This document shows positions 27,842 through 55,447 of a stretch of DNA of 64,000 nt, one piece after another. Within the stretch, counting starts at the first letter, position 1; each line of letters opens with the position of its first letter. The notes under the pieces are model-generated. The model made no database searches and had not been told where the DNA came from. It saw nothing but the letters and a program-made list of their open reading frames with translations. Position numbers and translations under genes: made by a program. The stretch is from Sulfurimonas aquatica (lineage in GTDB: Bacteria > Campylobacterota > Campylobacteria > Campylobacterales > Sulfurimonadaceae). Where the stretch lies: NCBI RefSeq assembly GCF_017357825.1, contig NZ_CP046072.1, positions 1,488,001-1,552,000 of the forward strand. Reading direction: 5' to 3'.

Positions 27842-27842
27842 T

Positions 27843-29449: not shown

Positions 29450-29451
29450 AG

Positions 29452-35316: not shown

Positions 35317-35458
35317 GATATTTCCTTTGATATTTCAGATATTGTATCATTTAACATTTTGCATAATTATCATAAACTGCTTAAAAATTAAGAAATCCGT
35401 TTAATCATGAAATAATACTATATAAAGCTTATAAAATGCCACTAAACAATACTCTTTT

Positions 35459-36310: not shown

Positions 36311-36320
36311 ATTTTATCCT

Positions 36321-38108: not shown

Positions 38109-39101
38109 TTAATTTTCTAGAAATCTATCCATCGCAAAATGAGCCGCACCTAGAAGTGCGGTTTCTTGATTTAAAGAGATTTTAATAGCCATGCTTCGTA
38201 ACATCTCTTCAAAACGCCCTTTACTAACAAAAGCATTTAAAAAACTCTCATGTTTAAGTATAGGTAATATCTTGGGTGCGATACCCCCACCAATATAGAC
38301 ACCTCCAAGAGACATACTTTTTAAAGCAAGGTTTCCAGCTTCAGCTCCATATATCTCACTAAAAAGAAGTAGTGTTTCTACACATAATGGATCATTATCT
38401 TCTAATGCACATTCACTTATCATCGCACTTTTATCTCTACCCTCTTCTATATTTAGCATTTTAGCTGGCTGCGGTGCATATCCACTCTCTAGTAAGAACT
38501 CATAAAGAGCAAAAATACCAGCTCCTGAGAGTATTCGCTCATAGCTCACATGTTTTGGATAATGATTTCTCAGCCATTTTAAAAGCTCATCTTGTTGCTC
38601 TGTTAAGGGAGCAAAGTCAGTATGTCCACCTTCAGATCCAATAGGGTGGTATTTATTACCATTAAAATAGAGTATCGCTTCTCCTAGTCCCGTTCCTGCT
38701 GCTATAACGCAACGATTAGCATTTACTACGCTACCCTCAGGGTTTAAATCAACAAACTCATCATCTTTAAGATACAACATACCATATGCTGTCGCTTCTA
38801 CATCATTAAGTAAGTTTACATTTTGCGTTTTAAGATGATTTTGAAGCTCTAAAGTTTTTATATCCCAGGGTAAATTAGTAGTTTTACAACGACCGTCTAT
38901 TACTGGACCAGCGACGCCAAAACAAGCTGATTTAATAAGAGGCATTGAATTTTCTTTCATAAAAACGCTAATTATTTCAATAAATGTCGAATAATCTTTG
39001 CTAGAGTATTGAGATTGAGCCTGTAATTCTAAAACGCCATCAATAACTTTATATATTCCCAGGTTAGTTTTTGTACCACCGATATCACCTGCTATTATCA
39101 T
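38109..39101 (-). CDS. glk: Glucokinase
   Basis: 330-residue glucokinase of the bacterial ROK-independent (Glk, E. coli type) family: ATP + glucose to glucose-6-phosphate. Phosphate-binding 'AGDIGGTKTNLGI' opens the protein, with 'FGVAGPV', 'LLNDVEATAYG', 'AAGTGLGEA' and 'GSEGGHTDFAP' following in order; length is normal. It is the last gene of the glycogen run. It would phosphorylate free glucose released by the GH57 enzymes or by debranching. The 38088-38108 gap to the convergent SHOCT gene has no clear terminator. Confidence 0.93.
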   Translation of the reverse strand: MIIAGDIGGTKTNLGIYKVIDGVLELQAQSQYSSKDYSTFIEIISVFMKENSMPLIKSACFGVAGPVIDGRCKTTNLPWDIKTLELQNHLKTQNVNLLNDVEATAYGMLYLKDDEFVDLNPEGSVVNANRCVIAAGTGLGEAILYFNGNKYHPIGSEGGHTDFAPLTEQQDELLKWLRNHYPKHVSYERILSGAGIFALYEFLLESGYAPQPAKMLNIEEGRDKSAMISECALEDNDPLCVETLLLFSEIYGAEAGNLALKSMSLGGVYIGGGIAPKILPILKHESFLNAFVSKGRFEEMLRSMAIKISLNQETALLGAAHFAMDRFLEN

Positions 39102-39121: not shown

Positions 39122-42100
39122 TTATTGTATATGCTCATTTTCAAGCTTATCAGGTGTGAGTAGATGCATAAAAGCGTCGATAAACGCTTTATCTGTCTCT
39201 TGTGGAGAGTACATATACATTGCTTCCCAAGCTTGTCCTCTTTGTTCATCATAATTATCCGAGGTATTATATTTTTTCCAAGATATTCTCACAGCATGAC
39301 CAATTAATACATCCAATACTAAGTCATCTTCTACAAATAGTTGTGGACTTTGACTAAAAAGTCTTGCAAGACTCTCTATTGCTTCTATATTTAATTGACG
39401 ATAGTCTGGAGCAGGAATACTTTGAAGTAGTCCATCTATTCTTAATTCAAAACTACGTTCACCAATAGTTGATTCAAGAGTCAACTCTGAGCCTATGCGA
39501 TTTTGAATACTATACTTATCACCAATTACTAATCCATTACATTTTTGAAGTAGGCTCCAGACATCTTCATAAAAGCTTGAGGGCAAACCACCTATAATGC
39601 CTTTATTTTGTCTCCAGTGTGCCCAATCTTTTGTCGTAGAGTTCTCTTCAATAGAGGATGGTAGTTTAGTGGACTCTAAAGTTGATATTCCTGAGACATG
39701 TAAATTTTCAAGCTCATGCAACTCATTTATTTCTCGGCTAAATGATTGAATAATGGTACGAAGATTATCATAAATATCATGTGGAGCTAAACCTAGTAAA
39801 TATTCGTAAGCATCACCAAATGAGAGACTCTTTAAACGGCTAATTTGTCCAACTAAAAGTTGTACAAATGACCAAGTACGAAGTGTTATCATATTTTCAA
39901 AGAGTTTTGGCTCTGTACGTATTAAATGCCCTAGATGTAAAATAATTTCTTGTGTTAAAACACTCTCAGCAGGATTGTTACCACAGAACTCTTTAATTAT
40001 TTTCAGGATTGCTAGACTCTCATGTGGTTTGCTAAAAGTCGCTTTTTCACTATAAGCGCGTCCAACGGCAAGGCGTTTATGTCGTATGATAATATCAAGT
40101 AGTACATCTTCAAGTCTATCATCATATATTTGTGTTATTTCTGCTATTCGCCTTACAACTGCCCAATTGTGATGTAGAGTAGCAGATTCGTATAACTCTT
40201 GCGCTACGACTGATAATTGTCTCTCTTGGTTATCAAATATAAATTTAAAATCTTTTCCATGTCTTTTATTTAAAATAGAAAGTGCATATACTTGTATACG
40301 ACAATCCTCTTTATCAAGCAAAGATATTATTAAAGAGGAGTCATCTTCACTATTAAGTTTTTTAAACACTTCCATAATGGATGAATCGTAAGTTTTACTT
40401 AGGGGTGATAGCATCTCATTTGATTGGCTATTTGCTACAAGTTCAAGAGTATTTAATTTAAAATCATGAATATAATCAATTCTTTCAATAGCTGCTTTAT
40501 CTAATAATTCTCTTAATGGTTTTATTTCTACTTCTCCTACTCTACATCTATTATTTCGAATATTATCCAAGAGTTCAAATAGAACTTTTTTTCCACTACC
40601 AAGAAGCATATCTTCTCGAACTAAAAATGGAATGATAGGTTTTTTTGTCTGATCCCATTGATCAAGAAGAAACTTTAATGATGATCTAAAGTGCTCAACA
40701 AGTAGTTTATTGTCATAACTAAAATAAAATCCCTTTGGATTAAAATAGTAAGGTAAAAAGAGAACTTGCTCTCCTCCAAGTAGGTGTATTTGAGATGTTG
40801 TAATCGTTCGCGTTACTAGATTTGGTCTCCCGCTTAATCCTAGTTTTTTATTTTTACCTAAAAATGTATGTACCTCAGAGAGTTCAGAGGCATAAAGCAC
40901 CTTTACTGGTTGAATCTCTTGAAGTGTTTCAGATTTAAAGCCCTCTTCTTCTAGTTGCTTTTTGATAATCTCATTTTCTGCAAGTATAAATACCAATGGC
41001 TCTGCACCTAGTTCATGTCCTATGCGTTTACGACGGTTTAAAGGATCAATATCTTCAGGCGATAAAACGCCATCCATTATCATTTCACTAAGCATATAGA
41101 GACTTTGCGCCCAGACTAAGGGTAGGTTCTCATTCGGAACGCGCAGTTGACTTTTTGGCTCTTGCTTCTCAGCCTCAATACTCTCTTTTGGCACAATATA
41201 TAGCTCAGGGAGCAGCATTTGCCCCTCTTCTTCGACAAAAAGTGGTTCTAGTTTTTGTTGCCATTTTTGAATCTCATCACTATCATTATGCATTAAAGCA
41301 TCAAGAAGAAGGTAGGTAAAAAATAGTGGCCATTCAGACTCTATATCTTCAAACTCACGTAGTTCTGAGGGCTCATAATGTAGTCTTGAAGCATCCTCTA
41401 TACTACTTTGATGCCCATCAAGTAAGAAACGCTTACACCCATAATTACCAGCTAGTTTTGTGATAATCTTTTCACGGGTGAGTTCCACTAACTCTTTATC
41501 TTCTATCGCATATCCAGGATAACCGATAATACTAAGCAGAGCGGCATCAGTCTCTTTTGAATTTGACTCGCGTGGTAAGAGTCCATAAAGAGTAGAACGC
41601 GACCGTGCGATATCACTTGCTATTACATGTATAACCGCTTCATTGCTATTAACATCACCAAATAGATTAAATCCATTTATCGCTTCTAATGCCGCTTTTG
41701 CCATACCTACTGAGCTTCCATTTATCTCAGTAGTTCCATGGTTAATCTTGTTTCCTCTTTCCCAAATACCATAATCTGGCGTACAGTATGTACGACTAAT
41801 ATAATGCACCATATTTTGTATAAAATTCACTTCATCAATAGTATAGATAATCTGAAGTCCTGAAGCTGTCATCTGGGAGAGCATAAGTAAGTATAAAGAG
41901 CTCGCATCAAGTTGTAAGTGTCCCCACTCATCATCTCCTACTACAGCTAAACCTGTAGTAGTTCCATACTTTGCATGTAGAGCATCTGTAGGATTAAGGG
42001 TATGTTTAAACTTTTCAATACGATCAGATTGTCGCATCATGGCACTAAGGAGTCCTCTCATTAACTTAACCACACTTTGGCTTAGAGTGTAACTCCTCTC

Positions 42101-42319
42101 ATGCTTAGCGTCATATTTTTTATAAGAAAGAGCAAGTCCCCATACACTCAAAATACTATAAACATTATCTCTCACCCATGCATCAGTATAATCTCCATGT
42201 GCGTTAACCGCTGTACTAGCAGGAAGAAGTCCGGTAATGGGATCTTGACGTAACAGTATTATCTTCTCTATAGAGCAGAAATGTTTATCAAGGATAGAAA
42301 GTTGTTTATCTGAGTTCAT
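39122..42319 (-). CDS. Phosphorylase kinase alpha/beta subunit-like protein (GH15-like)
   Basis: 1065-residue protein. Residues 1-420 are a GH15-like (alpha/alpha)6 domain, and the remainder matches the eukaryotic phosphorylase kinase regulatory subunits almost to the end. Shared blocks include 'AWVRDNVYSI', 'VVGDDEWGHLQLDASSLYLL', 'QMTASGLQII', 'NGSSVGMAKAALEAI', 'LVWAQSLYML', 'DPLNRR', 'LSGRP' and the C-terminal 'IPAPDYRQL'. The GH15 general-acid position is Glu (E187 in 'YGIWERG'). PHK alpha/beta subunits regulate glycogen phosphorylase kinase in animals. No catalytic protein kinase or calmodulin is coded nearby. In this operon (pgk upstream, glk downstream) it could be a glucan hydrolase or a regulator of the phosphorylase-like protein. 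Soluble. Confidence 0.88.
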   Translation of the reverse strand: MNSDKQLSILDKHFCSIEKIILLRQDPITGLLPASTAVNAHGDYTDAWVRDNVYSILSVWGLALSYKKYDAKHERSYTLSQSVVKLMRGLLSAMMRQSDRIEKFKHTLNPTDALHAKYGTTTGLAVVGDDEWGHLQLDASSLYLLMLSQMTASGLQIIYTIDEVNFIQNMVHYISRTYCTPDYGIWERGNKINHGTTEINGSSVGMAKAALEAINGFNLFGDVNSNEAVIHVIASDIARSRSTLYGLLPRESNSKETDAALLSIIGYPGYAIEDKELVELTREKIITKLAGNYGCKRFLLDGHQSSIEDASRLHYEPSELREFEDIESEWPLFFTYLLLDALMHNDSDEIQKWQQKLEPLFVEEEGQMLLPELYIVPKESIEAEKQEPKSQLRVPNENLPLVWAQSLYMLSEMIMDGVLSPEDIDPLNRRKRIGHELGAEPLVFILAENEIIKKQLEEEGFKSETLQEIQPVKVLYASELSEVHTFLGKNKKLGLSGRPNLVTRTITTSQIHLLGGEQVLFLPYYFNPKGFYFSYDNKLLVEHFRSSLKFLLDQWDQTKKPIIPFLVREDMLLGSGKKVLFELLDNIRNNRCRVGEVEIKPLRELLDKAAIERIDYIHDFKLNTLELVANSQSNEMLSPLSKTYDSSIMEVFKKLNSEDDSSLIISLLDKEDCRIQVYALSILNKRHGKDFKFIFDNQERQLSVVAQELYESATLHHNWAVVRRIAEITQIYDDRLEDVLLDIIIRHKRLAVGRAYSEKATFSKPHESLAILKIIKEFCGNNPAESVLTQEIILHLGHLIRTEPKLFENMITLRTWSFVQLLVGQISRLKSLSFGDAYEYLLGLAPHDIYDNLRTIIQSFSREINELHELENLHVSGISTLESTKLPSSIEENSTTKDWAHWRQNKGIIGGLPSSFYEDVWSLLQKCNGLVIGDKYSIQNRIGSELTLESTIGERSFELRIDGLLQSIPAPDYRQLNIEAIESLARLFSQSPQLFVEDDLVLDVLIGHAVRISWKKYNTSDNYDEQRGQAWEAMYMYSPQETDKAFIDAFMHLLTPDKLENEHIQ

Positions 42320-42335
42320 ATTTCAACACTTTACT

Positions 42336-43544
42336 CTAGCGTCTCTGGAGACATTCAAATCCAGGTAAAATCTTACCTTCTAAGAGTTCTAAGCTTGCTC
42401 CTCCACCAGTAGATATAAAGCTAAAGTTATCTTTTTCACCTGCCTTTTCTACAGCATCAGCAGTGTCTCCACCCCCAACAATAGTATAAGCATAGCAGTC
42501 ACCTATGGCGCTTGCAAGCTTATAAGTTCCTTTTGAAAATCTTTCTATTTCATAAATTCCCATTGGGCCGTTCCATATTATTGTGTTAGAAAGCTCTATA
42601 GCTTCAGAAAAAAGCTTCAGTGTAGCAGGTCCAATATCAACTGCATGAAAACCCTCTAAAACATCTTGAGATGGCACAACTCTTACATCCACAGGATGCT
42701 CAATTGAGTCTGTTATTACAGCATCAACAGGGAGGTAGACCTTAACGCCATTTACTTTTGCATCTTCTAGCACTTTTTTTGCAGTTTTAACAAACTCCTC
42801 TTCAAAGAGTGAAGCTTGCATATCATAACCTTGTGCACTAAGAAAAGTATTACTCATAGCGCCACCTATGATTAACTTATCTATTTTTGGCATTACAGAG
42901 CTTAAAAGGGTAATCTTCGATGATATCTTCGCACCTCCAACAACTAAAGCGATGGGTCGTATAGGTTTTTCAAGTGCCTTATTAAAAGCGGCTATCTCTT
43001 TCATCATTAAAAAACCTGCAACGCTATTCTCAACATATTTAGCTATTCCATATGTAGATGCATGCTTTCTATGCGACGTTCCAAAAGCATCATTTACATA
43101 AACGTCACATATATCAGCAAGTTTTTTTGAGAGTTCAGCATCATTCTTCTTCTCTCCATCGTGAAAACGTATATTTTCAAGTAAAAAGACGCGTTCAAGC
43201 GAACAAGTAGATATCTCTGCTTTAGAAGCTTCAAAGTCATCAATAAACTCTACTTTTTTTTCTAATAAACGCTCGAGTCTTTTTTGAATGTGTCTTAGTG
43301 TAAAAGAGTCTTCGTATCCATTTTTTGGATTACCAAGGTGTGATACAAGAGTAATAGAGCATGCGTTATGGTCTATACAATAATTAATCGTTGGTAAGGC
43401 TTCTTTAATACGACGATCATCTGAAATATTAAAATGATTATCCATAGGAACATTAAAATCCACACGAATCAATACCCTTTTACCTGTAACATCTATCTCT
43501 TTAAGACTTTTAACGCCACTCATATATGCAATATTACTTGTCAT
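42336..43544 (-). CDS. pgk: Phosphoglycerate kinase
   Basis: 402-residue glycolytic kinase: 1,3-bisphosphoglycerate + ADP to 3-phosphoglycerate + ATP, reversible. 'LIRVDFNVPMD', 'LVSHLGNPKNG', 'FLLENIRFHDGEK', 'VNDAFGTSHR' and 'TIVGGGDTADAVEK' are all present; length is normal. It is split from gap in this operon by pgi and the phosphorylase-like gene, an unusual order. It follows the phosphorylase-like gene by 12 bases. Confidence 0.95.
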   Translation of the reverse strand: MTSNIAYMSGVKSLKEIDVTGKRVLIRVDFNVPMDNHFNISDDRRIKEALPTINYCIDHNACSITLVSHLGNPKNGYEDSFTLRHIQKRLERLLEKKVEFIDDFEASKAEISTCSLERVFLLENIRFHDGEKKNDAELSKKLADICDVYVNDAFGTSHRKHASTYGIAKYVENSVAGFLMMKEIAAFNKALEKPIRPIALVVGGAKISSKITLLSSVMPKIDKLIIGGAMSNTFLSAQGYDMQASLFEEEFVKTAKKVLEDAKVNGVKVYLPVDAVITDSIEHPVDVRVVPSQDVLEGFHAVDIGPATLKLFSEAIELSNTIIWNGPMGIYEIERFSKGTYKLASAIGDCYAYTIVGGGDTADAVEKAGEKDNFSFISTGGGASLELLEGKILPGFECLQRR

Positions 43545-43556
43545 TTTATATCCTAT

Positions 43557-45200
43557 TTAGATGTCATACATTTTGACATAATACTCATGAGCCATACGCC
43601 CTGAGTCAAAGGCAGGAATAACGTCTTCCATAGCTTTTTTCATCATCTGCGTCCACTGCTCGGGTCTTTGATAATATCTAGGAATTATCTCATTTTCAAG
43701 CATATCCATTAAATTCTTATTATCTTCATAGTCTTGCTCTTCGGGTGGTTTGTTGTGATCAATCGGCGGAATGGTAAAAGAGTTACAACCATCTTTAGAA
43801 AACTCAGGGTGCCAACCATCATTTGTAGAGAGATGAATAGAGCCATTCATACTTGCTGTCATTCCACTTGTACCGCTTGCTTCTCTAGATACGCGAGGAG
43901 TATTTAACCATAAATCACTCCCTTTTTTCAAAACGCCAGAGAGCTCAAGCTCATAACCAATCAAAACAGCCATATTTTTCATATCTTTACTGATATGAAT
44001 CAACTCGTTAAAAGTATTAACTGCATTTGTATCAAAAGGGTAAGGTTTACCTGCCCAAATAATCTGAACAGGATATTTTTCACTCTCTAACATCGCTTTA
44101 AAACGCAGTAAATCTTGCTTGATAAGCCCTGGTCGTTTATACTCTGCAAAACGTCTTGCCCAGACTATAGTAAGTATGTCTGGATTAAACATTTTTCCAG
44201 TCTGATCAGCTACCTCATCAAATAAGATGCGTTTGAGATGTTTTTTACGTGATATGAGAGCATAGTCTTCATGTTCATCCAAGGCTCCAAGCATTCCCTT
44301 ATCTGTCCAAAAACGTCTATTTTGTGCATTTGTTATATAAGTGATTTCTGAACGCCCCTCACACTCTTTCCACATACGGTTAGCCACTTCTCCATGAAAC
44401 TTAGAAACGGCATTTGTCATTTTAACCGCTCTTAAAGCACCTACAGTAAGATTAAAAGTGTCTGTCTTTTTCATCAAACTTATTTCACGAACTTTTTCAA
44501 GACTCAGACCATTAAAAAAACCAAACTTATGTAGTAAGTTAATGTTATGCTCTTCATTTCCAGCCGCTTCAGGAGTGTGTGTTGTAAAGACAACCTTTTT
44601 TTTAACTTCTTGCATATCTTTTAGCTCAGAGTATAACTCATATACTAAAGGTACAGCATGCCCTTCATTCATATGATATATATCCACTTGGTGTTGTAAG
44701 GATTTTAAAACTTTTACTCCACCAATCCCTAAAACAATCTCTTGTGATATACGTGTCTCTGTATTCATGTCATAAAGTTTATGGGTAATGGTTCTTGCAA
44801 GAAAGTCATTTTCAGGTATATCCGTAGTAAGCAGTATCAAAGGTGCAGAATTAAAAACGCCAGCAGCTAAATAGAAGGCCTTTACATGTACGTCTTGGGA
44901 GTGAATGTTAACAGTAGCCTGTATACCAAGATCTTCAAGAAAATAGTAATGTTTTCTTATAAAGTCAGCTTGTAGGCTACCATTCTCATTACGTCCTTGA
45001 TCATAGTATCCATAACTCCATAAGATACCAATTCCTACTACATTTTGTTTAAGGTCATAAGCACTACGCATATGTGAGCCTGAGAGAAACCCAAGTCCAC
45101 CTGAATATATTTTCAGTGCTTGATGTATAGCAAATTCCATGGAGAAGTAAGCAACACTTGTCTTATACTTTGAATCGAATTGATAATCATGTAATACCAT
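43557..45200 (-). CDS. Alpha-glucan phosphorylase-like protein (GT35) with PLP-lysine position Thr
   Basis: 547-residue member of the short GT35 / alpha-glucan family phosphorylase group (classic enzymes are about 800-850). Signatures: 'AYFSMEFAIHQALKIYSGGL', 'FTTHTPEAAGN', 'YHMNEGHAVP' and 'WARRFAEYKRPGL'. The PLP-site motif normally reads EASGTSGMK; here it is 'EASGTSGMTAS', with T448 where the Schiff-base Lys should be. So either the protein does not use PLP in the usual way or is inactive; I think a whole subfamily may share this change. Canonical role would be phosphorolysis of glycogen to glucose-1-phosphate. Upstream of pgk, downstream of pgi. Confidence 0.8.
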   Translation of the reverse strand: MVLHDYQFDSKYKTSVAYFSMEFAIHQALKIYSGGLGFLSGSHMRSAYDLKQNVVGIGILWSYGYYDQGRNENGSLQADFIRKHYYFLEDLGIQATVNIHSQDVHVKAFYLAAGVFNSAPLILLTTDIPENDFLARTITHKLYDMNTETRISQEIVLGIGGVKVLKSLQHQVDIYHMNEGHAVPLVYELYSELKDMQEVKKKVVFTTHTPEAAGNEEHNINLLHKFGFFNGLSLEKVREISLMKKTDTFNLTVGALRAVKMTNAVSKFHGEVANRMWKECEGRSEITYITNAQNRRFWTDKGMLGALDEHEDYALISRKKHLKRILFDEVADQTGKMFNPDILTIVWARRFAEYKRPGLIKQDLLRFKAMLESEKYPVQIIWAGKPYPFDTNAVNTFNELIHISKDMKNMAVLIGYELELSGVLKKGSDLWLNTPRVSREASGTSGMTASMNGSIHLSTNDGWHPEFSKDGCNSFTIPPIDHNKPPEEQDYEDNKNLMDMLENEIIPRYYQRPEQWTQMMKKAMEDVIPAFDSGRMAHEYYVKMYDI

Positions 45201-45218: not shown

Positions 45219-46481
45219 TTATTTTCCAAATTTTTTATATAAAATATCTTTACCTAACTCAACTCCAGGTTGATCGTACGTATTTACATGTAACATAGCT
45301 CCAACCAAAGAAGTTAGTAGTTCATAATATATTATCATTGTACCAATATTACCCTCACATATTCTTTGAAAAACGATACTATCTACGGATACACCACTTT
45401 GAATGAGACTTTCGCGCGTTGCGTCACACTGTGCATTTATAAGAGTATTAAAACTATTACTATTTACAAAATTAGTTTTTTCTATATGTTTTAGTGTCAC
45501 ATCGGGTATGCTCAAGTCATTTTCAAAATCTTCTATACTTACAAAAGTAACTGTCTTATCTTTTGGACCTTCTATTAAGAGTTGTAAAAATGAGTGTTGA
45601 TCTATGGAGCCAATTAATCCAATTGGCGTCAATCCAACATTTTTCTCCTGTGTATTTATCTTACCTAAGGATTCTCCCCATAGCTGTACATACCACTTAC
45701 AGAGATTTTCAAGGTCATTTGCATAAGCAAAGAGTACGTTTATACTCTGCATAGGACTATGTTCATAAAAGTGACAAGCCTTCTCTAAAATATGATCCTC
45801 TTCATGATTAAAAAAGCGGGTTAAAAAGCCTTCAGCACTATCTAAAAGTGTTTTTGTATCATAACCTGCTAGAGTTAAGGGAACTATACCTACAGCACTT
45901 AAAACTGAAAAGCGTCCACCTACGTTATCAGAGATATTAAACTGTTTTACTCCATAGTGCTTAGCAAACAGTGATAAGGATGAACCCTTATCCGTTATGA
46001 CGATAACTCTTTGAGAATCAACAGATTCAAGTTCCAAGTCAAAGTAAGAGATTATGGTCTTAAAGATAGATGTAGTCTCTATGGTTGAGCCGGACTTGGA
46101 TATAACTATAAATAGCGTATTTTCCTTTCTAAGCTTTGCCATAGTTCTTGAGATATCAATAGGGTCTGAATTTTCAAAAAAATGTAATCTACGCGTATTT
46201 AGATTTTTTGATAGCATAAGAGAGTTAACTGCTTTAATACCTAGTGATGAACCACCAATACCAATGACAGCAATATCTTTTATCTGCCCTGAATTTAACA
46301 GTATGTTTCCCTGTATTAACTCTTGTACCTCATCTAAAAGAGCATGTGAGTCATGAGGAAGGTTATAGTAACCAACCTCCCCACTCTTATACTCCTCTGA
46401 TATACTTGCAAAAGCATCATCCATCATATTTTGATGTGCAGCAGTGTTCTCAAAACTAAAGTCACGACTGAAATGTAGCAT
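45219..46481 (-). CDS. pgi: Glucose-6-phosphate isomerase
   Basis: 420-residue isomerase, fructose-6-phosphate to/from glucose-6-phosphate. Family motifs 'VIGIGGSSLGIKA', 'VISKSGSTIET', 'NVGGRFSVLSAVG' and 'YDQPGVELGK' are present. It is shorter than the E. coli enzyme (549) but similar to other Campylobacterota forms. Its ATG overlaps the gap stop codon by one base (TAATG), so the two are translationally coupled. It links glycogen-derived glucose phosphates to fructose-6-phosphate. Confidence 0.93.
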   Translation of the reverse strand: MLHFSRDFSFENTAAHQNMMDDAFASISEEYKSGEVGYYNLPHDSHALLDEVQELIQGNILLNSGQIKDIAVIGIGGSSLGIKAVNSLMLSKNLNTRRLHFFENSDPIDISRTMAKLRKENTLFIVISKSGSTIETTSIFKTIISYFDLELESVDSQRVIVITDKGSSLSLFAKHYGVKQFNISDNVGGRFSVLSAVGIVPLTLAGYDTKTLLDSAEGFLTRFFNHEEDHILEKACHFYEHSPMQSINVLFAYANDLENLCKWYVQLWGESLGKINTQEKNVGLTPIGLIGSIDQHSFLQLLIEGPKDKTVTFVSIEDFENDLSIPDVTLKHIEKTNFVNSNSFNTLINAQCDATRESLIQSGVSVDSIVFQRICEGNIGTMIIYYELLTSLVGAMLHVNTYDQPGVELGKDILYKKFGK

Positions 46482-47476
46482 TACTTGTTACCTATAAAAG
46501 CACACATATCAACTAAACGCGAGCTATATCCCCATTCATTATCATACCAAGCTAAAACCTTAACTGTTTTACCATCTACGACGCTAGTCATATCTGGAAT
46601 GTAAGTTGAACTGTAAGTTGAGCCTATGAAGTCACTCGATACGCGTTTATCGGTATCAACTTCTATTAGACCTTTAAACTCACCCTCTGAAGCCTCGACA
46701 AATGCAGCGTTAATCTCTTCAACACTAACGTTTTTTTTCAGGTTAACAGTCAAATCAACTACAGAGACATCTGGTGTGGGAACACGCATAGCATATCCGT
46801 TTAGTTTTCCTTTTAAAGAGGGCATAACAAGGGCAATAGCTTTTGCCGCACCTGTGGTTGTAGGTATCATATTTACTGCTGCCGCACGAGCACGGCGTTT
46901 ATCAGAGCTATGTTTAACGTCTAGTATATTTTGATCATTTGTATAGGAGTGAATAGTAGTCATCAGACCATTTTCAATTCCAAAACTATCATCGAGAACC
47001 TTACAAATTGGAGCAAGACAATTTGTAGTACAGCTTGCATTAGAGATTATTGCTTCGCCTTTATACTCATCTGTATTAATGTTTAACACATAAGTCGGCG
47101 TATCGTCTTTTGCCGGAGCCGACATTACAACTTTTTTAACGCCATTTTTCAAGTATGCTTGTGCTTTTTCCGTTGTTAAAAAAACACCTGTACACTCAAT
47201 AACTAACTCTGCACCAGCTGAACCAAAGTCAAGTTCATTGAGATCACGAGTGCTAAACATCTTTACTGTTTTTCCACCGAGTAAAATAGTGCTATCATCT
47301 ATAACCTTAGCATCTATTCCACGATGTATGCTATCATATTTGAATAGATACTCGAGCATATCAGGCTTAGCGGTTGTATTAATCGCCACTAACTCTACAT
47401 CATCGCGTTGCATAATAATCTTTGCGACTATCATTCCTATTCTACCAGTTCCGTTTATTGCTACTTTTAGAGACAT
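46481..47476 (-). CDS. gap: Type I glyceraldehyde-3-phosphate dehydrogenase
   Basis: 331-residue dehydrogenase: glyceraldehyde-3-phosphate + NAD(P)+ + phosphate to 1,3-bisphosphoglycerate. Catalytic Cys is C149 in 'SNASCTTNCLAP'; the His motif and 'VNMIPTTTGAA' are present. Residue 34, where NAD-specific enzymes have Asp (IND), is Thr in 'AINTTAKPD', so NADP+ use or dual cofactor use is possible; this is inferred from position only. The nucleotide motif reads 'NGTGRIG' instead of the usual NGFGRIG. One-base overlap with pgi. Confidence 0.94.
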   Translation of the reverse strand: MSLKVAINGTGRIGMIVAKIIMQRDDVELVAINTTAKPDMLEYLFKYDSIHRGIDAKVIDDSTILLGGKTVKMFSTRDLNELDFGSAGAELVIECTGVFLTTEKAQAYLKNGVKKVVMSAPAKDDTPTYVLNINTDEYKGEAIISNASCTTNCLAPICKVLDDSFGIENGLMTTIHSYTNDQNILDVKHSSDKRRARAAAVNMIPTTTGAAKAIALVMPSLKGKLNGYAMRVPTPDVSVVDLTVNLKKNVSVEEINAAFVEASEGEFKGLIEVDTDKRVSSDFIGSTYSSTYIPDMTSVVDGKTVKVLAWYDNEWGYSSRLVDMCAFIGNK

Positions 47477-47533: not shown

Positions 47534-49462
47534 TTATTTTTTAATCACTCGTTTGAGGTATATTACACCTAAAGGAGGAAGTGTTAAACTTAAAGAGTAC
47601 TCCCTTCCATGCATTTGCTCTTTTTTTGCAGTTATAGGGCCCGTGTTACCTATATTCCAACCCTCATAATAAGTTGACTGTGAGTTAAATATCTCTTCAT
47701 ACTCACCCTCAAATGGCACGCCAACCTTATAAGAGTCTCGCGTTTCATCTGCAAGGTTGCATAAGATATAGACTGTTTCATCTGCATCATCAGACTTGCG
47801 CATAAAACTGATACAGTTATGCTGGTAGTCCCCATCATCTATCCATTCAAAACCAATCTTTTTTTCATCATACAGATATAAGGCTCTCTCTCTACGATAT
47901 ATCATATTCAAATCACTTACCATCTTTTGTAGTTTAGAGTGTAGAGGATTTTCAAGCAAATGCCAATCAAGACTCTTCTCAAAGTTCCACTCTGAAAACT
48001 GAGCAATATCTCCACCCATAAAAAGTAGTTTTTTACCAGGGTGTGCCATCATATAAGCATACATTGCGCGTAAGTTTGCAAATTTTTGATTATTGTCTCC
48101 GGGCATTTTATTTATGAGTGAGCCTTTCATGTGCACAACCTCATCATGACTCAGAGGTAGCATAAAGTGCTCATCAAACGCATACCAAAGACTAAAGGTG
48201 AGTTGATGATGGTGGTGTTGTCTATGAATCGGATCATAACTCATATATTTTAATGAATCATGCATCCATCCCATATTCCATTTAAAGCCAAAACCTAAAC
48301 CGCCTATGCTTGTCGGCCTTGTTACCATTGGCCAAGCAGTAGACTCTTCTGCAATCATCATGATGTCTGAGAACTCTGAATATACGCTCTCATTTAACTT
48401 TCTCAAAAACGACACTGCTTCTAAGTTTTCATTTCCACCATGCTCATTTGGAATCCACTCCCCCTCTTCTCTAGCATAGTTAAGATAGAGCATAGAGGCA
48501 ACTGCATCTACACGAATGCCATCAATATGATACTTATCAAGCCAAAACATCGCTGATGAGATAAGAAAAGATTTGACTTCGTTACGGCCATAGTTAAATA
48601 TAATACTACCCCATTCAGGATGATATCCTTGTCTTGGGTCCTCATGCTCATATAGAGCCGTTCCATCAAAGTTAATCAGTCCATGCATATCAACGGCAAA
48701 GTGAGAAGGTACCCAATCCATAATTACTCCAATACCATTGTTATGGAGTGTATCGATTAAATACATAAGATCTTCAGGCTCTCCAAAGCGTGCAGTTGCA
48801 GAAAAGTAACCAACAACCTGATAGCCCCATGAACCAAAGTAAGGGTATTCAGTTAAAGGCATAAACTCAACATGAGTATAGTTCATCTGCTTCAAGTACT
48901 TCAATAGCTCCACACTAAGTTCTCTATAACTTAGATAACGATTTTCCTCTTCTACTTTACGCATCCATGAACCAAGGTGCATCTCATAGACTGATACTGG
49001 TGCGTCATGAGCATTATGCTTAAAACGCTCCTTCATCCAAGCCTTATCATTCCACTCATAACTCTCAAGGCTCCATACGCGAGAAGCTGATTTTGAAGGT
49101 TTTTCACTGTAAAAAGCAAATGGATCACTCTTCTCATGTACGATATTATGAAATTTTGAAACAATGTGGTACTTGTATGTTAAGCCCTCTTCAACACCTT
49201 CTATAAAGCCTTCCCAAATACCAGAGTCATCTTCACGAAGTTTAAGAGGGTGAGTATCTTCTACATAGTCATTAAAATCACCTCGAACACTAACATTTTG
49301 TGCATTTGGTGCCCATACACTAAAGTGTACACCACTTTTGCCATTATGCGTCATCATATGAGAGCCAAATTTCTCATAAAGTTTTGTATGGCTACCCTGT
49401 TTAAAAAGATAAATATCTAACTCAGTTAAAGTAGATAAGTCATAGTGGATAGAGTGTTTCAT
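47534..49462 (-). CDS. glgB: 1,4-alpha-glucan branching enzyme
   Basis: 642-residue GH13 enzyme that makes alpha-1,6 branches in glycogen. N-terminal CBM48-type domain ('VHFSVWAPNAQNVSVRGDFN'), then the GH13 core with nucleophile D319 in 'GIRVDAVASML' and acid/base E372 in 'MMIAEESTAWP', and 'LPLSHDEVVHMKGSL'. Length is that of the shorter bacterial form. It comes directly after glgA (49471-50958) with eight bases between. Central to glycogen synthesis here. Confidence 0.95.
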   Translation of the reverse strand: MKHSIHYDLSTLTELDIYLFKQGSHTKLYEKFGSHMMTHNGKSGVHFSVWAPNAQNVSVRGDFNDYVEDTHPLKLREDDSGIWEGFIEGVEEGLTYKYHIVSKFHNIVHEKSDPFAFYSEKPSKSASRVWSLESYEWNDKAWMKERFKHNAHDAPVSVYEMHLGSWMRKVEEENRYLSYRELSVELLKYLKQMNYTHVEFMPLTEYPYFGSWGYQVVGYFSATARFGEPEDLMYLIDTLHNNGIGVIMDWVPSHFAVDMHGLINFDGTALYEHEDPRQGYHPEWGSIIFNYGRNEVKSFLISSAMFWLDKYHIDGIRVDAVASMLYLNYAREEGEWIPNEHGGNENLEAVSFLRKLNESVYSEFSDIMMIAEESTAWPMVTRPTSIGGLGFGFKWNMGWMHDSLKYMSYDPIHRQHHHHQLTFSLWYAFDEHFMLPLSHDEVVHMKGSLINKMPGDNNQKFANLRAMYAYMMAHPGKKLLFMGGDIAQFSEWNFEKSLDWHLLENPLHSKLQKMVSDLNMIYRRERALYLYDEKKIGFEWIDDGDYQHNCISFMRKSDDADETVYILCNLADETRDSYKVGVPFEGEYEEIFNSQSTYYEGWNIGNTGPITAKKEQMHGREYSLSLTLPPLGVIYLKRVIKK

Positions 49463-49470
49463 TATTTTTC

Positions 49471-50958
49471 CTATTGGGCAGCGCTATTGAGGCGGCCCTT
49501 TATTATATGAGAGTAAAGTTCTTCATAACCTTTAGCCGCTTCACTCCAGTCAAAACGTTTCTTCATAGCGTTACGTCTTAACTGATCAAAGCCTATCTCA
49601 TCATTGTACCAGACATCTACCGCCCATTTCACTGTGCCATTTAAAGCCTCGGGTGTTGCATCATAAAACTTAAAACCCGTACCGCTCTTACTTTTGCTTT
49701 CATAGTTTTCAATAGTGTCATCTAACCCACCTGTTGCGCGTACTATTGGTAGGGTTCCATAACGCAGACTATATATCTGGTTGAGGCCACATGGCTCAAA
49801 CAGTGAAGGCATTAAAAAGAGATCACTTCCAGCTTCTATTTTGTGTGCCAAATCATTTTGATACCCTATATAGCAAGCAAATTTCTGAGGATATTTCAAA
49901 GCAACATCAGCAAAGAAATGCTCAGCCCACTTCTCACCGGCACCTAAAAGTACTATTTGAATATCAAGCTCCATCAAGTTTGAAATTGCTCCAGCGAGTA
50001 GATCTATACCTTTTTGTTCTGCCAAACGTCCAACTAAACCGATTACTGGGACATCACTTCGAACAGGAAGCTTAAACTCTTTTTGCAAAGTTTTTTTACA
50101 TTTAGCCTTGCCGGAAAGATCATCGATATCAAAGTTTGCTGGTATGAGTTTATCTACCGCCGGGCTCCACTCTTCATAATCAACACCATTTAAAATGCCA
50201 TAAAGCTTATACGCTTTGTCATTTATCAAACCTTCTAGTCCCCATCCAAACTCAGATGTACGAATCTCCTCCGCATATTTTTTACTTACCGCGTTTATAG
50301 CGTCTGCATGAACTATTCCACCTTTAAGGAGGTTAATGCCATCATACTCTTCAAGCTCATTGGCGTTAAAATGCTCCCATCCTACCCCTAAGACATCCAT
50401 TGCGCCTTTGTAAAACTTACCTTGATGCTGAAGGTTGTGAATGCTCAGTAGCGTCCCCGTATGTTCAAAGTCTGAATCATTTGAATAAGTTGTATTAAGC
50501 AAAATGGGAATAGCCGCAGTATGCCAATCATTTGCATGGATGACGTCAGGTTTAAAGCGGAGTTTTTTTGCTAGTTGCATCACTGCTTTTGAGAAGAAAA
50601 TAAAACGATTATCATTATCTCCATACCCTTGTCCATCTTCATCATATAAACCTTTACGACCAAAGAACTCTTCATGCTCAATAAAATAGATAGGAATATC
50701 ACTTCCTGGAAGAACTCCTTCAAAAACACCAGCCCAAACTTCACCCATACTTCCCATCGGCACGCCTAATGAGCCATCAAGTGTCTTAAGATTATATTTC
50801 TCTTTATCGACAATGTAATAACGCGGCATTACAATGCGTACGTCGTGTCCTAATTTACGAAGAGCTTTAGGTAGAGCACCAACAACGTCAGCTAGGCCAC
50901 CACTCTTAGCAAAGGGAACAACTTCAGAAGCTGCAATTAATATATTTAGTTTATTCAT
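49471..50958 (-). CDS. glgA: Glycogen synthase (first copy in this list, GT5)
   Basis: 495-residue GT5 glycogen synthase: adds glucose from ADP-glucose to the growing glucan. The substrate motif 'KSGGLADVVGALPKAL' (typical K(S/T)GGL) is at residues 18-33. C-terminal GT-B signature 'SLFEPCGLNQIYSLRYGTLP' and 'ATGGLDDT' are complete. Its ATG overlaps the stop of the second synthase gene by four bases, so the two are translationally coupled. It is followed by glgB. Having two synthases in tandem suggests different roles or different donor preference. Confidence 0.93.
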   Translation of the reverse strand: MNKLNILIAASEVVPFAKSGGLADVVGALPKALRKLGHDVRIVMPRYYIVDKEKYNLKTLDGSLGVPMGSMGEVWAGVFEGVLPGSDIPIYFIEHEEFFGRKGLYDEDGQGYGDNDNRFIFFSKAVMQLAKKLRFKPDVIHANDWHTAAIPILLNTTYSNDSDFEHTGTLLSIHNLQHQGKFYKGAMDVLGVGWEHFNANELEEYDGINLLKGGIVHADAINAVSKKYAEEIRTSEFGWGLEGLINDKAYKLYGILNGVDYEEWSPAVDKLIPANFDIDDLSGKAKCKKTLQKEFKLPVRSDVPVIGLVGRLAEQKGIDLLAGAISNLMELDIQIVLLGAGEKWAEHFFADVALKYPQKFACYIGYQNDLAHKIEAGSDLFLMPSLFEPCGLNQIYSLRYGTLPIVRATGGLDDTIENYESKSKSGTGFKFYDATPEALNGTVKWAVDVWYNDEIGFDQLRRNAMKKRFDWSEAAKGYEELYSHIIKGRLNSAAQ

Positions 50959-52391
50959 AAGTTCTCTTTTTTAGATATTTTTTCATACAAGTTAAGATAT
51001 GACATAGCACTCTCTTGCCAAGAAAAATCACAAGCCATATTATGCTTTGCTATTTTATTATAGATACTTTTATTTTCATATAGTTTCATAGCTTCATCGA
51101 TGGCTTTAAGAAATGCGTCTACGCTAGGTTTATCAAAAGTTATACCAAATCCCTTGGCTTTTTTTGCATCAAAATCATTATAATCCTTAACGGTATCAGA
51201 CAAACCACCAACACGATGTACTATAGGTACTTCGCCATATGCCATAGCAATAATTTGACTTAATCCACACGGTTCAAAGAGTGAAGGCATAAGTAAAAAG
51301 TCTGCACTAGCATACATACGGTGAGAGAGAGACTCATCATAAGCAAAACTCAAGTGTACATTAGAGTTCTCCTTTGCTATCTCTCTAAGAGCCATATGAT
51401 ACTTCTCTTCTCCATCACCTAAAATTGCGATATTACACTCATATGAAGCGATTATAGGGAGAGCTTCAATGAGTAAGTCCATTCCTTTTTGCCAAGCAAA
51501 ACGGCCAATAAAAACAAATAGGGGTTTTCTTACGCCTTTAAGCTTCGTCGCCTTAATATAAGCACTCTTATTTGTCGCTTTGGCTTTTAAATCACTATAT
51601 GGTTTTTCAAGTCTTTTATCTTTTGAGGGAGAAAAATGTTCTGTATCTATGCCATTAATAATACCGACAAGTTTTTCTTGATGATGGCTCAAAAAACCCT
51701 CTAATCCGCACCCAAACTCTGGAGTAAGTATCTCTTTTGCATAGGATGGACTCACAGTAGTAACCATATCTGCATCTGCAATTGCCGCTTTGATGAAGTT
51801 TACTCGTCCATAAAACTCTAAGCACTCCATAGTGAAGTATTTTGAATCAATGCCTAGAGTTTGTAAAACTTCATAATCAAACACGCCTTGGTAAGAGAGG
51901 TTATGAATGGTAAAAAGCGTCTTTGTATTTATACTCTTATCTTCTTTTATCAGCAAAGGCACTAATCCACACTGCCAATCATTCAAATGGACAACATCAT
52001 AGGAGTTTTCTTTTAATACTCTAATTATTACACGACTAAAAAGCGCAAAACGCAGAGCATTGTCTTCATAACCACTATCAGGAGGACCGTATAAAAAATC
52101 TCTATCGCACAAAAGCGATGAGTATATAAACCGATAGCTCATACCTTCAAAGAGGCACTTGTATAACTCTACAGGGTAGACTATGCCATTCATTGATATA
52201 TTAAAACTTTCATTAGCAGGTACAATATTGTATGTTTTTCTATTAACAAAGCTATACAGAGGCATAATAACTTCAATATTACAATCTTTACTTAAAGCTC
52301 TAGGAAGGCTATGCGCTATATCTGCCAAACCACCGCTTTTTGCAAAAGGGTAGACCTCACTTGAGACAAAAAGTACAGAAGGCTTAAGCAT
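50955..52391 (-). CDS. Second glycogen synthase-like protein (GT5)
   Basis: 478-residue GT5 protein, related to the 495-residue synthase but diverged. It has 'KSGGLADIAHSLPRAL', 'LHLNDWQCGLVP'-like and 'LFEPCGLSQIIAMAYGE' plus 'VGGLSDTVKDY'. Family motifs for ADP-glucose binding and catalysis appear intact. It overlaps galT by 8 bases and the next glgA by 4. It may be a true synthase of different specificity or a helper; sequence alone does not decide. Confidence 0.88.
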   Translation of the reverse strand: MLKPSVLFVSSEVYPFAKSGGLADIAHSLPRALSKDCNIEVIMPLYSFVNRKTYNIVPANESFNISMNGIVYPVELYKCLFEGMSYRFIYSSLLCDRDFLYGPPDSGYEDNALRFALFSRVIIRVLKENSYDVVHLNDWQCGLVPLLIKEDKSINTKTLFTIHNLSYQGVFDYEVLQTLGIDSKYFTMECLEFYGRVNFIKAAIADADMVTTVSPSYAKEILTPEFGCGLEGFLSHHQEKLVGIINGIDTEHFSPSKDKRLEKPYSDLKAKATNKSAYIKATKLKGVRKPLFVFIGRFAWQKGMDLLIEALPIIASYECNIAILGDGEEKYHMALREIAKENSNVHLSFAYDESLSHRMYASADFLLMPSLFEPCGLSQIIAMAYGEVPIVHRVGGLSDTVKDYNDFDAKKAKGFGITFDKPSVDAFLKAIDEAMKLYENKSIYNKIAKHNMACDFSWQESAMSYLNLYEKISKKENL

Positions 52392-53415
52392 CTTTTTCCT
52401 CTCTTAATAGTTTTGCGGCTAGTTCTGGCGTTACGGGATTTATAACTACTCCCGTACTCTGCTCAAAGCCGCCATATTTATATATCCGAGGCATGATACG
52501 AATGGAGAATCTGCAAGCCTCGTCCACAGATGAGAGTAACTCATGTTCTATGCTTCCTTCTTGTAAAGGTGGAGTTGATATGCAAAGGTTAAAATCAAAG
52601 GAGTCTAACTGAATCTTCATCTTTTTAAGTACCCCTAAGAGTAAAGGTGCCAACTCTTTGATACTCTCATCACTAATAGTATCTATCTGACCCAGAGCAG
52701 CTTTAGAACTAATCATTACCTCAAAAGGATAAGTACTAGCGTAAGGACAGTAAGCTGTAAAATCGCTAGAGTTAGCAATGATGCGCCGAGAATCCTCTTC
52801 TTCATGCATCAAGACCGACTCTACTAAAGAGTGCTCATTACTTTTATAGTACTCATAACTTCTAGCATAAGCCTCTTTTTGTATCTTAGGAATGATGGGT
52901 AATCCAATAACTTGAGTGTGCGAATGAGCTTGTGTTGATCCAGCTTGTGTTCCCTCATTTTTAAACAGAGATATGTACGCTATACGATGATCACGACGTA
53001 GGTCAGAAACGCGTTGACGCAAAGTTTGTAACCACTCCTCAACATTTTCTTGGCTCCACTGTACCATCGAAGTGTGATGCTTAGGGGTGTCGATGACAAT
53101 TTCATGAGCACCAAAACCCTCCAAGTATTCAAACGGACCATAGTGGTGTTTGTATGGCATTTCAATCTGTACAGCCTTAAAAAGGTTAGGTACAACGCGA
53201 GTATGCCACCCCTCTTCATTGGCAAAAGTACCTTTGCCACGTATTGCAAATATTTCTGGCGGAGTCAACTTTTCATTTCCTTCGCAAAAAGGACAGTTTT
53301 TGTGTTCAATATTCACTTCATCACGCTTAACGCTATAGTCAGTTCTATGTAAGCGTTCTGGTGCAATAATGACATGAGTATCATGCAGTCTGTCGTATCT
53401 AATCTCAGACATCAA
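52384..53415 (-). CDS. galT: Galactose-1-phosphate uridylyltransferase-like protein
   Basis: 343-residue GalT/HIT-superfamily enzyme. Zinc-site 'CPFCEGNEKLTPPE' and the catalytic motif 'AHSHTQVIG' (H164, H166, the same numbers as in E. coli GalT) are present; the motif reads H-S-H-T-Q where HPHGQ is common. Canonical reaction: UDP-glucose + galactose-1-phosphate to UDP-galactose + glucose-1-phosphate. No galactose genes are near, and no glgC lies in the run. It might move nucleotidyl groups between sugar phosphates for glucan synthesis; that is inference. It overlaps GH57 by 11 bases. Confidence 0.85.
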   Translation of the reverse strand: MMSEIRYDRLHDTHVIIAPERLHRTDYSVKRDEVNIEHKNCPFCEGNEKLTPPEIFAIRGKGTFANEEGWHTRVVPNLFKAVQIEMPYKHHYGPFEYLEGFGAHEIVIDTPKHHTSMVQWSQENVEEWLQTLRQRVSDLRRDHRIAYISLFKNEGTQAGSTQAHSHTQVIGLPIIPKIQKEAYARSYEYYKSNEHSLVESVLMHEEEDSRRIIANSSDFTAYCPYASTYPFEVMISSKAALGQIDTISDESIKELAPLLLGVLKKMKIQLDSFDFNLCISTPPLQEGSIEHELLSSVDEACRFSIRIMPRIYKYGGFEQSTGVVINPVTPELAAKLLREEKDA

Positions 53416-55447
53416 AAACCTCCAAAGAGCCCTTTAGGTCTAAAGAGTCACTAAATGGAATCACCATCGCAAAGCTAATACCCTGCACGCTTAAGTCAAA
53501 ACCATGTTCACTCTGTGAAAGTGTCTTCAATTGAAAATAGTAAATATCGCAAATCTGCTCAAGCTTAATATAAATAGTTTGTTGAAGCAGAGCGTCATAT
53601 ATCTTAAGTTCATTTACGCCAGAAAGCTTTCCTTCATCTTCTAAAGCGACGTCGTTTATCATTATCGTTTCATAGCCTGCAAAGTGAAGATTATGCTCAA
53701 GTACGTACTTGAAACTCCCTTTAGCTTCAGTGGAGAGTTTTATCTCAAAGTCAAAGCCATTCTTTTTAGGAGTATATGTTTTTTCTAACGACGTCTTGTA
53801 GCTCTCGGGAAAGAACATTCCTCCGTCTCTAAAAAACTTGGCGCTTGTTTTTGTATATGAAACTTCAAAGGGCTGATTTGAGAAGTCTCCAAACTCACGA
53901 AAGTCGCAATAACGAAAGTTGTCGCCATTGAAGTTAGCATCACTTATATGGTCCACAAAAGAGTTTTTAAGATACCAGTCGTAAATTATTGCGTCTTTGA
54001 GTGTATCATTCACTTCCACATTGGCATGATGAATGGTATCGATTCCATCTTGAACTATAGGAGTCTCTTCATTTTGATTAGGTTCAAATATTTTCTGATG
54101 ATACGCCTCTTTTCTACGAGTCAGAGTATTTTGCCAATTAAAACAGCCCTTACGCATATCAAACTCTACCAACTGGCCACCATGAGCCCCATCAAAACGG
54201 AAGATATAACTTGGAGTAACCATCTTTATCTTATCATGTCCATCAAGCTCATTTTGATCACATGCTAAAAGAGTTTTTTTACCATAACGCACATTTTCAG
54301 CTTCGATTATATAACGGTAGGCGTTATCTCTTAGATTTGGTAGATAGAGTCCGCCAAATACGCCATGCCAAAGTGAGTCGTTTGTCTGGGCCTTATATAA
54401 CGCCATATCAAAAGAGGATTTTTTAACGCTCTTTCTAGCCTTTGAGAGTTCAAGAGTGCGTTTATGTATTCTGTTACTCTCTTCATACTTTACAAGAAAG
54501 TTTTTCCAGATGCCACCTTTTAAAAACTTAACACCCTCTCTCTCATAGCGCTTGCTACCCATCTCTTTTTTAAACGTCTCAAGTTTAAGAGTATCGTCGG
54601 CGCGAAGACTCCACTCTCCCATCTCATAATATGAAACATTAGGAAGATAAGCGATTCCTCGCGTTTTCTCCTGCTCGTAGTACTCGCTATAGAGCATAGT
54701 TTCTATACTATCATCCGCTATAACAGCTTTTACAAAACTCTCTAGCCAACCTTTTTCATATACCCATTCATGAGTTCCAGGCCACATACCGAACTTCTCC
54801 GCGTCGTCAAAAATAATAGCGGCAGAATTCTCTTCTCTTTTATAGGACTTTATAGCTTTAATCGCAGAATCAACACTTAAAAAAGGAATGGCGTAACGCA
54901 GCTTTTTACTGATTGGAAAAAGAGCTATCTCCTCTCCTCCCTCTTCACTCATATAGTAACCATCGAGTATCTCTTCATCAAATCCCGCACACTGAAAATG
55001 GTAATCATCCATCACCGTATACTTTATCCCCGCTTTTTTCAAATCGGGAATCAAAGAGGATTCCCAAACACGTTCTGTCAGCCAAAGTCCTTGTGGAGTC
55101 TGTTTAAACTCCGATTTTATACTTTTGTTGAGCATCTCTATCTGTGTTACACGATCTTTTGAAGGAATAACACTGAGTATTGGCTCATAATAACCCGCAC
55201 TAAAAAACTCTATACTTCCTCTTTTAGCTAACGTCATAATCTGTTTATAGAGTTTTGGGTGTAACTCTTTTATCTGCTCCATTAGCCAGCCACTACAATG
55301 CACTGAAAAACGAAACTCTGGATACTTACTCATCACTTCAAAAAATGGACCGTAGCAAACTTCAACGCCATGCTTTATAACCCAGTCAAAATTATCAACT
55401 GGCTGATGCATATGAATTCCAAAAAGCAATTTTGTGTTATTAGACAT
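53405..55447 (-). CDS. GH57 4-alpha-glucanotransferase-like enzyme
   Basis: 680-residue GH57 protein with an N-terminal catalytic barrel and C-terminal DUF1925/DUF1926-type beta domains ('GDNFRYCDFREFGDFSNQPF'). It opens 'FGIHMHQPVDNF'. The nucleophile is E125 in 'WLTERVWE' and the acid/base D214 in 'FDDAEKFG'; these match E123 and D214 of the Thermococcus litoralis enzyme. That enzyme rearranges alpha-1,4-glucans, releasing glucose. Here it would trim or remodel glycogen, feeding glk. It starts 52 bases after the second GH57 stop. Confidence 0.9.
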   Translation of the reverse strand: MSNNTKLLFGIHMHQPVDNFDWVIKHGVEVCYGPFFEVMSKYPEFRFSVHCSGWLMEQIKELHPKLYKQIMTLAKRGSIEFFSAGYYEPILSVIPSKDRVTQIEMLNKSIKSEFKQTPQGLWLTERVWESSLIPDLKKAGIKYTVMDDYHFQCAGFDEEILDGYYMSEEGGEEIALFPISKKLRYAIPFLSVDSAIKAIKSYKREENSAAIIFDDAEKFGMWPGTHEWVYEKGWLESFVKAVIADDSIETMLYSEYYEQEKTRGIAYLPNVSYYEMGEWSLRADDTLKLETFKKEMGSKRYEREGVKFLKGGIWKNFLVKYEESNRIHKRTLELSKARKSVKKSSFDMALYKAQTNDSLWHGVFGGLYLPNLRDNAYRYIIEAENVRYGKKTLLACDQNELDGHDKIKMVTPSYIFRFDGAHGGQLVEFDMRKGCFNWQNTLTRRKEAYHQKIFEPNQNEETPIVQDGIDTIHHANVEVNDTLKDAIIYDWYLKNSFVDHISDANFNGDNFRYCDFREFGDFSNQPFEVSYTKTSAKFFRDGGMFFPESYKTSLEKTYTPKKNGFDFEIKLSTEAKGSFKYVLEHNLHFAGYETIMINDVALEDEGKLSGVNELKIYDALLQQTIYIKLEQICDIYYFQLKTLSQSEHGFDLSVQGISFAMVIPFSDSLDLKGSLEVFDV

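Follow-up and report, generated by a model that had tools for sequence, protein, structure and literature searches.

We identified in the genome of Sulfurimonas aquatica a full-length bacterial homologue of the alpha and beta regulatory subunits (PHKA and PHKB) of phosphorylase kinase (PhK), encoded within a glycogen operon on a 64,000-nucleotide stretch of contig NZ_CP046072.1 (positions 1,488,001 to 1,552,000; hereafter the window). The protein is probably an intracellular, inverting exo-glucohydrolase of glycoside hydrolase family 15 (GH15) built on the phosphorylase-kinase scaffold; it is possibly nucleotide-regulated and would feed glucose to a glucokinase (Glk) encoded beside it, an activity that we infer chiefly from a complete GH15 site and from gene order. 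The gene in question is the following.

39122..42319, minus strand: PHK alpha/beta-like protein (GH15 domain D1 plus D2-D5/KPBB_C), 1065 amino acids; open reading frame, Pfam, phmmer, and structural model.

The open reading frame starts with ATG and yields the 1065 residues given in an earlier note on this DNA, which had proposed full-length homology to the animal subunits from the letters alone. Two Pfam families lie in one chain, both above the gathering score: GH15 spans residues 14-815 (E = 9.3e-81), and residues 831-1057 match KPBB_C, the C-terminal domain of phosphorylase b kinase (E = 1.4e-74). A phmmer search of the entire PDB sequence set returned PHKA (5.8e-203) and PHKB (1.5e-167) as the sole matches with E up to 1. 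The alignment to PHKA covers residues 10-588, 659-857, and 882-987, and that to PHKB covers 10-819 and 893-1011; the C-terminal IPAPDYRQL block, which had been said to align with the animal subunits, falls inside these alignments. The C-terminal half used as a separate query still matches PHKA (E = 1.8e-29) and PHKB (3.1e-28), and a profile built from 33 bacterial homologues retrieves PHKA (E = 0) and PHKB (4.5e-271) and otherwise only noise. An ordinary NCBIfam enzyme assignment was ruled out, the search giving one weak trehalase match far under its cut-off.

The AlphaFold2 model of the protein (predicted local distance difference test [pLDDT], 82.9; predicted template modeling score, 0.79) superimposes on PHKA over residues 1-1055 with a Z score of 50.3, with 926 residues aligned at 38% identity, and on PHKB with a Z score of 43. 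The whole-chain root mean square deviation from PHKA is high, about 10 Å, which may reflect different domain positions in the model. The first 420 residues match GH15 enzymes, the top hit being the structure 5Z3x (Z = 28, residues 3-419), named as a Kribbella isomaltose glucohydrolase (PMC12446779). For the (alpha/alpha)6 barrel of D1, Z scores are 28 to 5Z3B, 26 to 1LF6, and 21 to fungal glucoamylases. The Kribbella flavida enzyme (5Z3A-F) and other GH15 hydrolases have in common with the window protein the barrel and the acid/base pair, but only D1 is common to both, and the window protein adds about 630 residues (D2-D5). A match confined to the GH15 part is ruled out by Pfam, phmmer, the C-terminal-half search, and the structural match together, GH15 and KPBB_C both being recovered. 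By architecture and fold, the protein belongs to the PHK alpha/beta homologous family, and the proposed full-length homology is borne out.

The GH15 site itself is encoded by three short segments.

41759..41761, minus strand: codon of E187, GH15 general acid (PHKA E185).
41204..41206, minus strand: codon of E372, GH15 general base (PHKA E371; PHKB Lys408).
42167..42193, minus strand: GH15 motif DYTDAWVRD, residues 43-51 (Tyr44, Trp48, Arg50, and Asp51, invariant in 33 of 33 homologues; placed by hhalign).

In the cryo-electron microscopy structure of human PhK, alpha Glu185 and Glu371 form the catalytic pair, while beta lacks some catalytic residues (PMC10978961). Our alignment reproduces this numbering, pairing them with E187 and E372, the two catalytic glutamates of GH15 regions S3 and S5. 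E187 is confirmed as the general acid, as had been suggested, and the base is present as well. None of the 33 bacterial homologues departs from R50, D51, W132, W186, E187, R297, E372, or W403. Human PHKA1 (8JFK, 8Z5R), which has the same domain order over its full length, keeps all eight positions including both glutamates; PHKB (8JFL), also homologous throughout, carries Gln, Tyr, and Lys instead at three of the eight and lacks equivalents of R50, W132, E372, and Tyr44, all present in the window protein. Across residues 1-560, 135 of the 155 near-invariant bacterial columns are kept in PHKA and 108 in PHKB, so that PHKA lies closer overall to the bacterial consensus. The PHKA changes fall mostly into three clusters (T36/A37/H41/G42/Y44, K296/H303/Q304, and N396/N398/L401/V402/A404); the window protein retains K296, H303-Q304, N396, N398, and A404, all altered in alpha.

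The first of these clusters contains the residue predicted to support the base. A tyrosine hydrogen-bonds to the general base in GH15 enzymes (TtGA Y337, AgGD Y326, and KfIG Y48), and by the published numbers it stands seven residues before the subsite aspartate in TtGA (D344) and AgGD (D333) (PMC12446779). Tyr44 likewise lies seven residues before D51 and is invariant in 33 of 33 homologues. In hhalign, the window motif DYTDAWVRD pairs, unforced, with DYRYTWIRD from canonical GH15 proteins of bacteria (probability, 94%; E = 1.3e-7), a result that required 20 myxobacterial GH15 sequences to be aligned first. These were chosen by the motif Y...W.RD, so the shared motif is not independent evidence; what is independent is that, of the 22 GH15 loci examined in the myxobacterial phylum, 20 contain it. 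The motif also occurs in Aspergillus niger glucoamylase, whose sequence was verified letter for letter against PDB 3EQA; a direct hhalign comparison of D1 with that single enzyme gave an insufficient probability of 2%, yet it set E187 opposite E179. The base of the window protein is preceded by proline, as in inverting GH15 hydrolases, whereas the retaining dextran dextrinases have Gly-Glu at this pair. In the human alpha subunit the motif reads DQKDAWVRD, with Gln39 at the tyrosine position, and the loop before it, kept as T36-Y44 in the window protein, is shortened. Judged from sequence, loss of the base-supporting tyrosine together with the shortened loop may account for the inactivity of human alpha, with the caveat that Tyr37 of alpha, two residues from Gln39, may act as a substitute.

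The strongest context evidence for catalysis is the linkage to glucokinase.

38109..39101, minus strand: glucokinase (Glk), directly downstream of the PHK-like gene with a 20-bp gap (PF02685, E = 8e-100; solved Glk, E = 3e-43).

Of the 10 Campylobacterota loci whose downstream DNA was readable, 8 have Glk as the next gene (the window, L002, L003, L004, L008, L053, L054, and L055), the exceptions being L005 and L006. The same arrangement is found in three gammaproteobacterial loci (L056, L057, and L059), whose remaining neighbors differ (FMN oxidoreductase; glutamine synthetase; GatB and Hsp33). In L060 Glk is the divergent neighbor, and in L015 it lies about 4 kb away. Conserved kinase or glycogen neighbors outside Campylobacterota were considered and rejected: the flanking genes include GatB, Hsp33, glutamine synthetase, LacI, and transglutaminase, among others, and Glk is the sole common partner. 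Neither in the cyanobacterial loci nor in the remaining ones was Glk found next to the PHK-like gene. Phosphorylase yields glucose-1-phosphate, which leaves a glucokinase without substrate, whereas an exo-hydrolase releases glucose, the substrate of Glk; the linkage therefore supports catalysis.

The PHK-like gene is the 12th of a 13-gene, same-strand glycogen/glycolysis run in which no gap exceeds 58 bp. The other members, besides Glk, are listed in order of transcription.

57536..60040, minus strand: fused nucleotidyltransferase-phosphohexomutase, first gene of the run.
55500..57533, minus strand: second glycoside hydrolase family 57 (GH57) protein.
53405..55447, minus strand: GH57 4-alpha-glucanotransferase/amylase-like protein.
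52384..53415, minus strand: GalT-like nucleotidyltransferase.
50955..52391, minus strand: second GlgA-like glycogen synthase.
49471..50958, minus strand: GlgA glycogen synthase.
47534..49462, minus strand: GlgB branching enzyme.
46481..47476, minus strand: type I GAPDH.
45219..46481, minus strand: glucose-6-phosphate isomerase.
43557..45200, minus strand: short alpha-glucan phosphorylase, 547 amino acids (TIGR02094 type, E = 5e-132).
42336..43544, minus strand: phosphoglycerate kinase (Pgk; Pfam).

The glycogen operon setting, with the phosphorylase gene at 43557 and pgk (42336) in between, is as the earlier note described (Pfam, TIGR02094). Animal phosphorylases are absent from the PDB matches of the 43557 phosphorylase. 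Two neighboring GlgA-type glycogen synthase genes within one operon (49471-52391) are an observation in their own right.

In the mechanism that we propose, the (alpha/alpha)6 barrel at the N terminus (roughly residues 1-430) would remove glucose by the inverting GH15 mechanism: E187 would be the acid and E372 the base, the latter supported by Y44, and the sugar subsites would be formed by R50, D51, W132, W186, R297, and W403. The glucose could come from glycogen, limit dextrins, or short maltodextrins, through cleavage of alpha-1,4 linkages, alpha-1,6 linkages, or both. The glucokinase of the adjacent gene would phosphorylate it, and the glucose-6-phosphate would then enter the glycolytic steps of the same operon, parallel to the phosphorylase route. 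The D2-D5 scaffold probably forms a homo-oligomer, and ADP or AMP may tune activity through a pocket of the beta type.

An enzyme acting mainly on alpha-1,6 linkages, as a debranching enzyme or limit-dextrin glucosidase, or else by transglucosylation, appears rather improbable. The closest enzyme fold is that of an alpha-1,6-specific isomaltose glucohydrolase, but the fold ranking is weakly informative on linkage specificity. The debranching GDE_C domain occurs in none of seven Campylobacterota genomes, and the genome containing the window has only GlgB and a sucrose-phosphorylase-like GH13 (glycoside hydrolase family 13) protein, with GlgX not found, which would leave room for a debranching role; the two GH57 proteins of the operon, however, could debranch. 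Transglucosylation is disfavored by the Pro-Glu pair at the base. Elsewhere in this genome (L064, contig C1, about position 2350000), the sucrose-phosphorylase-like gene adjoins a glucosyl-3-phosphoglycerate synthase gene, which suggests glucosylglycerate metabolism.

The predicted nucleotide control, which is less certain than the hydrolase reading, concerns two segments of the gene.

41783..41794, minus strand: R176-Y178-C179 segment, corresponding to PHKB R211, Y213, and R214 of the ADP-diphosphate pocket.
41603..41605, minus strand: codon of R239, the counterpart of R274 in the PHKB ADP pocket.

ADP activates PhK via the beta subunit, where Arg211, Tyr213, Arg214, and Arg274 surround the diphosphate (PMC10978961). 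The pocket reads Arg-Tyr-Arg-Arg in PHKB, in 13 of 13 cyanobacterial homologues, and in one gammaproteobacterial homologue, and Ala-Tyr-Lys-His in human alpha, so that, as far as the residues tell, the bacterial family appears to unite a site largely kept by alpha with one kept by beta. Division of two older functions after duplication would be the simplest reading of these unrooted data: alpha would have kept most of the catalytic site minus the tyrosine, beta the ADP site, and both animal copies would have turned into regulators of a kinase.

Several observations weigh against the hydrolase reading. The position after the base, Gln in AgGD, TtGA, and KfIG, though not in all GH15-like enzymes (PMC12446779), is Leu in the window protein and Leu, Val, or Ile in 33 of 33 homologues. 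Model confidence is low near the catalytic acid, with pLDDT below 50 at residues 187-193. At the ADP pocket the window protein reads Arg-Tyr-Cys-Arg, with Cys at the PHKB R214 position, and so keeps three of the four pocket residues. Glk is not adjacent in 13 cyanobacterial loci, and the operon already encodes a phosphorylase and two GH57 proteins, so that a further hydrolase is not obviously needed. Finally, neither the alpha-gamma-delta subcomplex nor the PhK holoenzyme showed hydrolase activity (PMC10978961); human alpha is inactive despite having both catalytic glutamates, and these residues alone therefore prove nothing.

That near-intact but inactive human site also speaks for a catalytically silent glycogen sensor, in which the GH15-like domain would bind glucan ends and control phosphorylase or the glycogen synthases by contact. 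The binding and activation of PhK by acarbose (PMC10978961) fit such a sensor, as does an operon shared with a phosphorylase and two synthases. Yet the catalytic residues, including base E372 and Tyr44, are invariant in 33 of 33 homologues, and the three gammaproteobacterial loci couple the gene to Glk but show no recognized glycogen genes alongside, an arrangement that fits glucose release. We regard the sensor as unlikely.

A regulatory subunit of an unrecognized bacterial protein-kinase complex acting on phosphorylase, in effect a true bacterial phosphorylase kinase, is suggested by the full-length homology to PHKA and PHKB but is highly improbable. No eukaryotic-type protein-kinase or EF-hand family was matched by Pfam among the 35 window proteins to which the search was confined; the statement in the earlier note that neither a gamma kinase nor calmodulin is present holds within this set, the rest of the genome not having been searched for kinases. 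The gamma-docking positions (alpha Tyr593 and Lys588) are Arg591 and Asn586 in the window protein, with Tyr in 2 and Lys in 1 of the 33 homologues, and a C-terminal CaaX farnesylation motif, where beta is farnesylated, occurs in none of the 33. The neighboring phosphorylase, moreover, is of the short TIGR02094 type and has no animal enzyme among its PDB matches. Because the CaaX end, the gamma-docking residues, and a kinase in the window are all missing, the protein, as read from its sequence, is not functionally a subunit of phosphorylase kinase. The earlier note had left open a glucan hydrolase or a regulator of the phosphorylase; we favor the hydrolase and not the regulator because the GH15 site is complete in 33 of 33 homologues, the gene is coupled to Glk, the phosphorylase differs from the one that PhK acts on in animals, and no kinase partner is encoded in the window.

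The S. aquatica genome comprises 2.85 Mb in two contigs. Outside the cyanobacteria, relatives of the protein are patchily distributed. Of 60 related genomes, 3 encode KPBB_C, which was found in 3 of 249 sampled Campylobacterota, in 6 of 229 Gammaproteobacteria (seed genome counted), and, over the cut-off, in 28 of 117 cyanobacteria, about a quarter, including the model cyanobacterium Synechococcus elongatus as a control match. Beyond the seed genomes it was found in none of 145 genomes for the Verrucomicrobia group, 247 for the Bacteroidia group, and 140 from the phylum of the Polyangiaceae group. The gene is single-copy in 12 of 12 genomes checked. The nearest named proteins belong to Sulfurimonas metagenome-assembled genomes (64-67% identity). 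In the phylogenetic tree, human alpha and beta come together in a single clade (100/98), and the window protein groups with PHK-like proteins of the same whole architecture; it falls in a Campylobacterota group adjoining two gammaproteobacterial sequences (L058 and L060), which suggests horizontal transfer between these lineages. Placement of PHKA and PHKB among the bacterial clades was given up owing to weak deep branches, the long PHKB branch, and the unrooted tree. With the tree unrooted and eukaryotes represented by human sequences only, the "ancestral" status raised in the earlier note is plausible. We found no paper on bacterial PHK homologues in the collection of open-access articles searched, and an earlier mention elsewhere is possible; sequence databases surely contain such proteins, since the Pfam KPBB_C model matches them at once, and the novelty lies in the functional reading.

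Other features of the window lie outside these subjects. Next to the glycogen operon (28538-37109) lies a gene cluster for bacterial transglutaminase-like proteins together with circularly permuted ATP-grasp, Alpha-E, and putative amidoligase (DUF2126) proteins, with a second ATP-grasp/Alpha-E pair at 26477-28502. An ice-binding-like protein (PF11999) with a Big_5 domain is encoded at 12033-13151, and a SelO protein adenylyltransferase of pseudokinase fold at 15367-17076. At 61030-63165 an AIR-synthase-like gene (possibly SelD) is followed by a rhodanese/P-loop gene (possibly tRNA 2-selenouridine synthase), both names being guesses from domains.

Phosphorylase kinase was among the earliest protein kinases studied. 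The inactive glucoamylase-like domains of its two largest subunits have been described as needing further investigation (PMC10978961). One soluble bacterial protein makes the origin of these domains testable, because this relative combines a complete active site with an ADP pocket of the beta type, exists in a one-gene form, and is directly linked to Glk by gene order; it also predicts a cause of human alpha inactivity, namely, Gln39 and the missing loop. Cyanobacteria with the gene, such as S. elongatus, offer a genetic system. Our data suggest that the animal regulator descended from a working glycogen-degrading enzyme. More tentatively, the bacterial PHK-like proteins might be ADP-regulated glycogen glucohydrolases whose functions were later split between alpha (the catalytic site, disabled through loss of the tyrosine and loop) and beta (the ADP site). 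If true, phosphorylase kinase regulation would have its origin in an enzyme that degraded glycogen and was already sensing the energy state of the cell.

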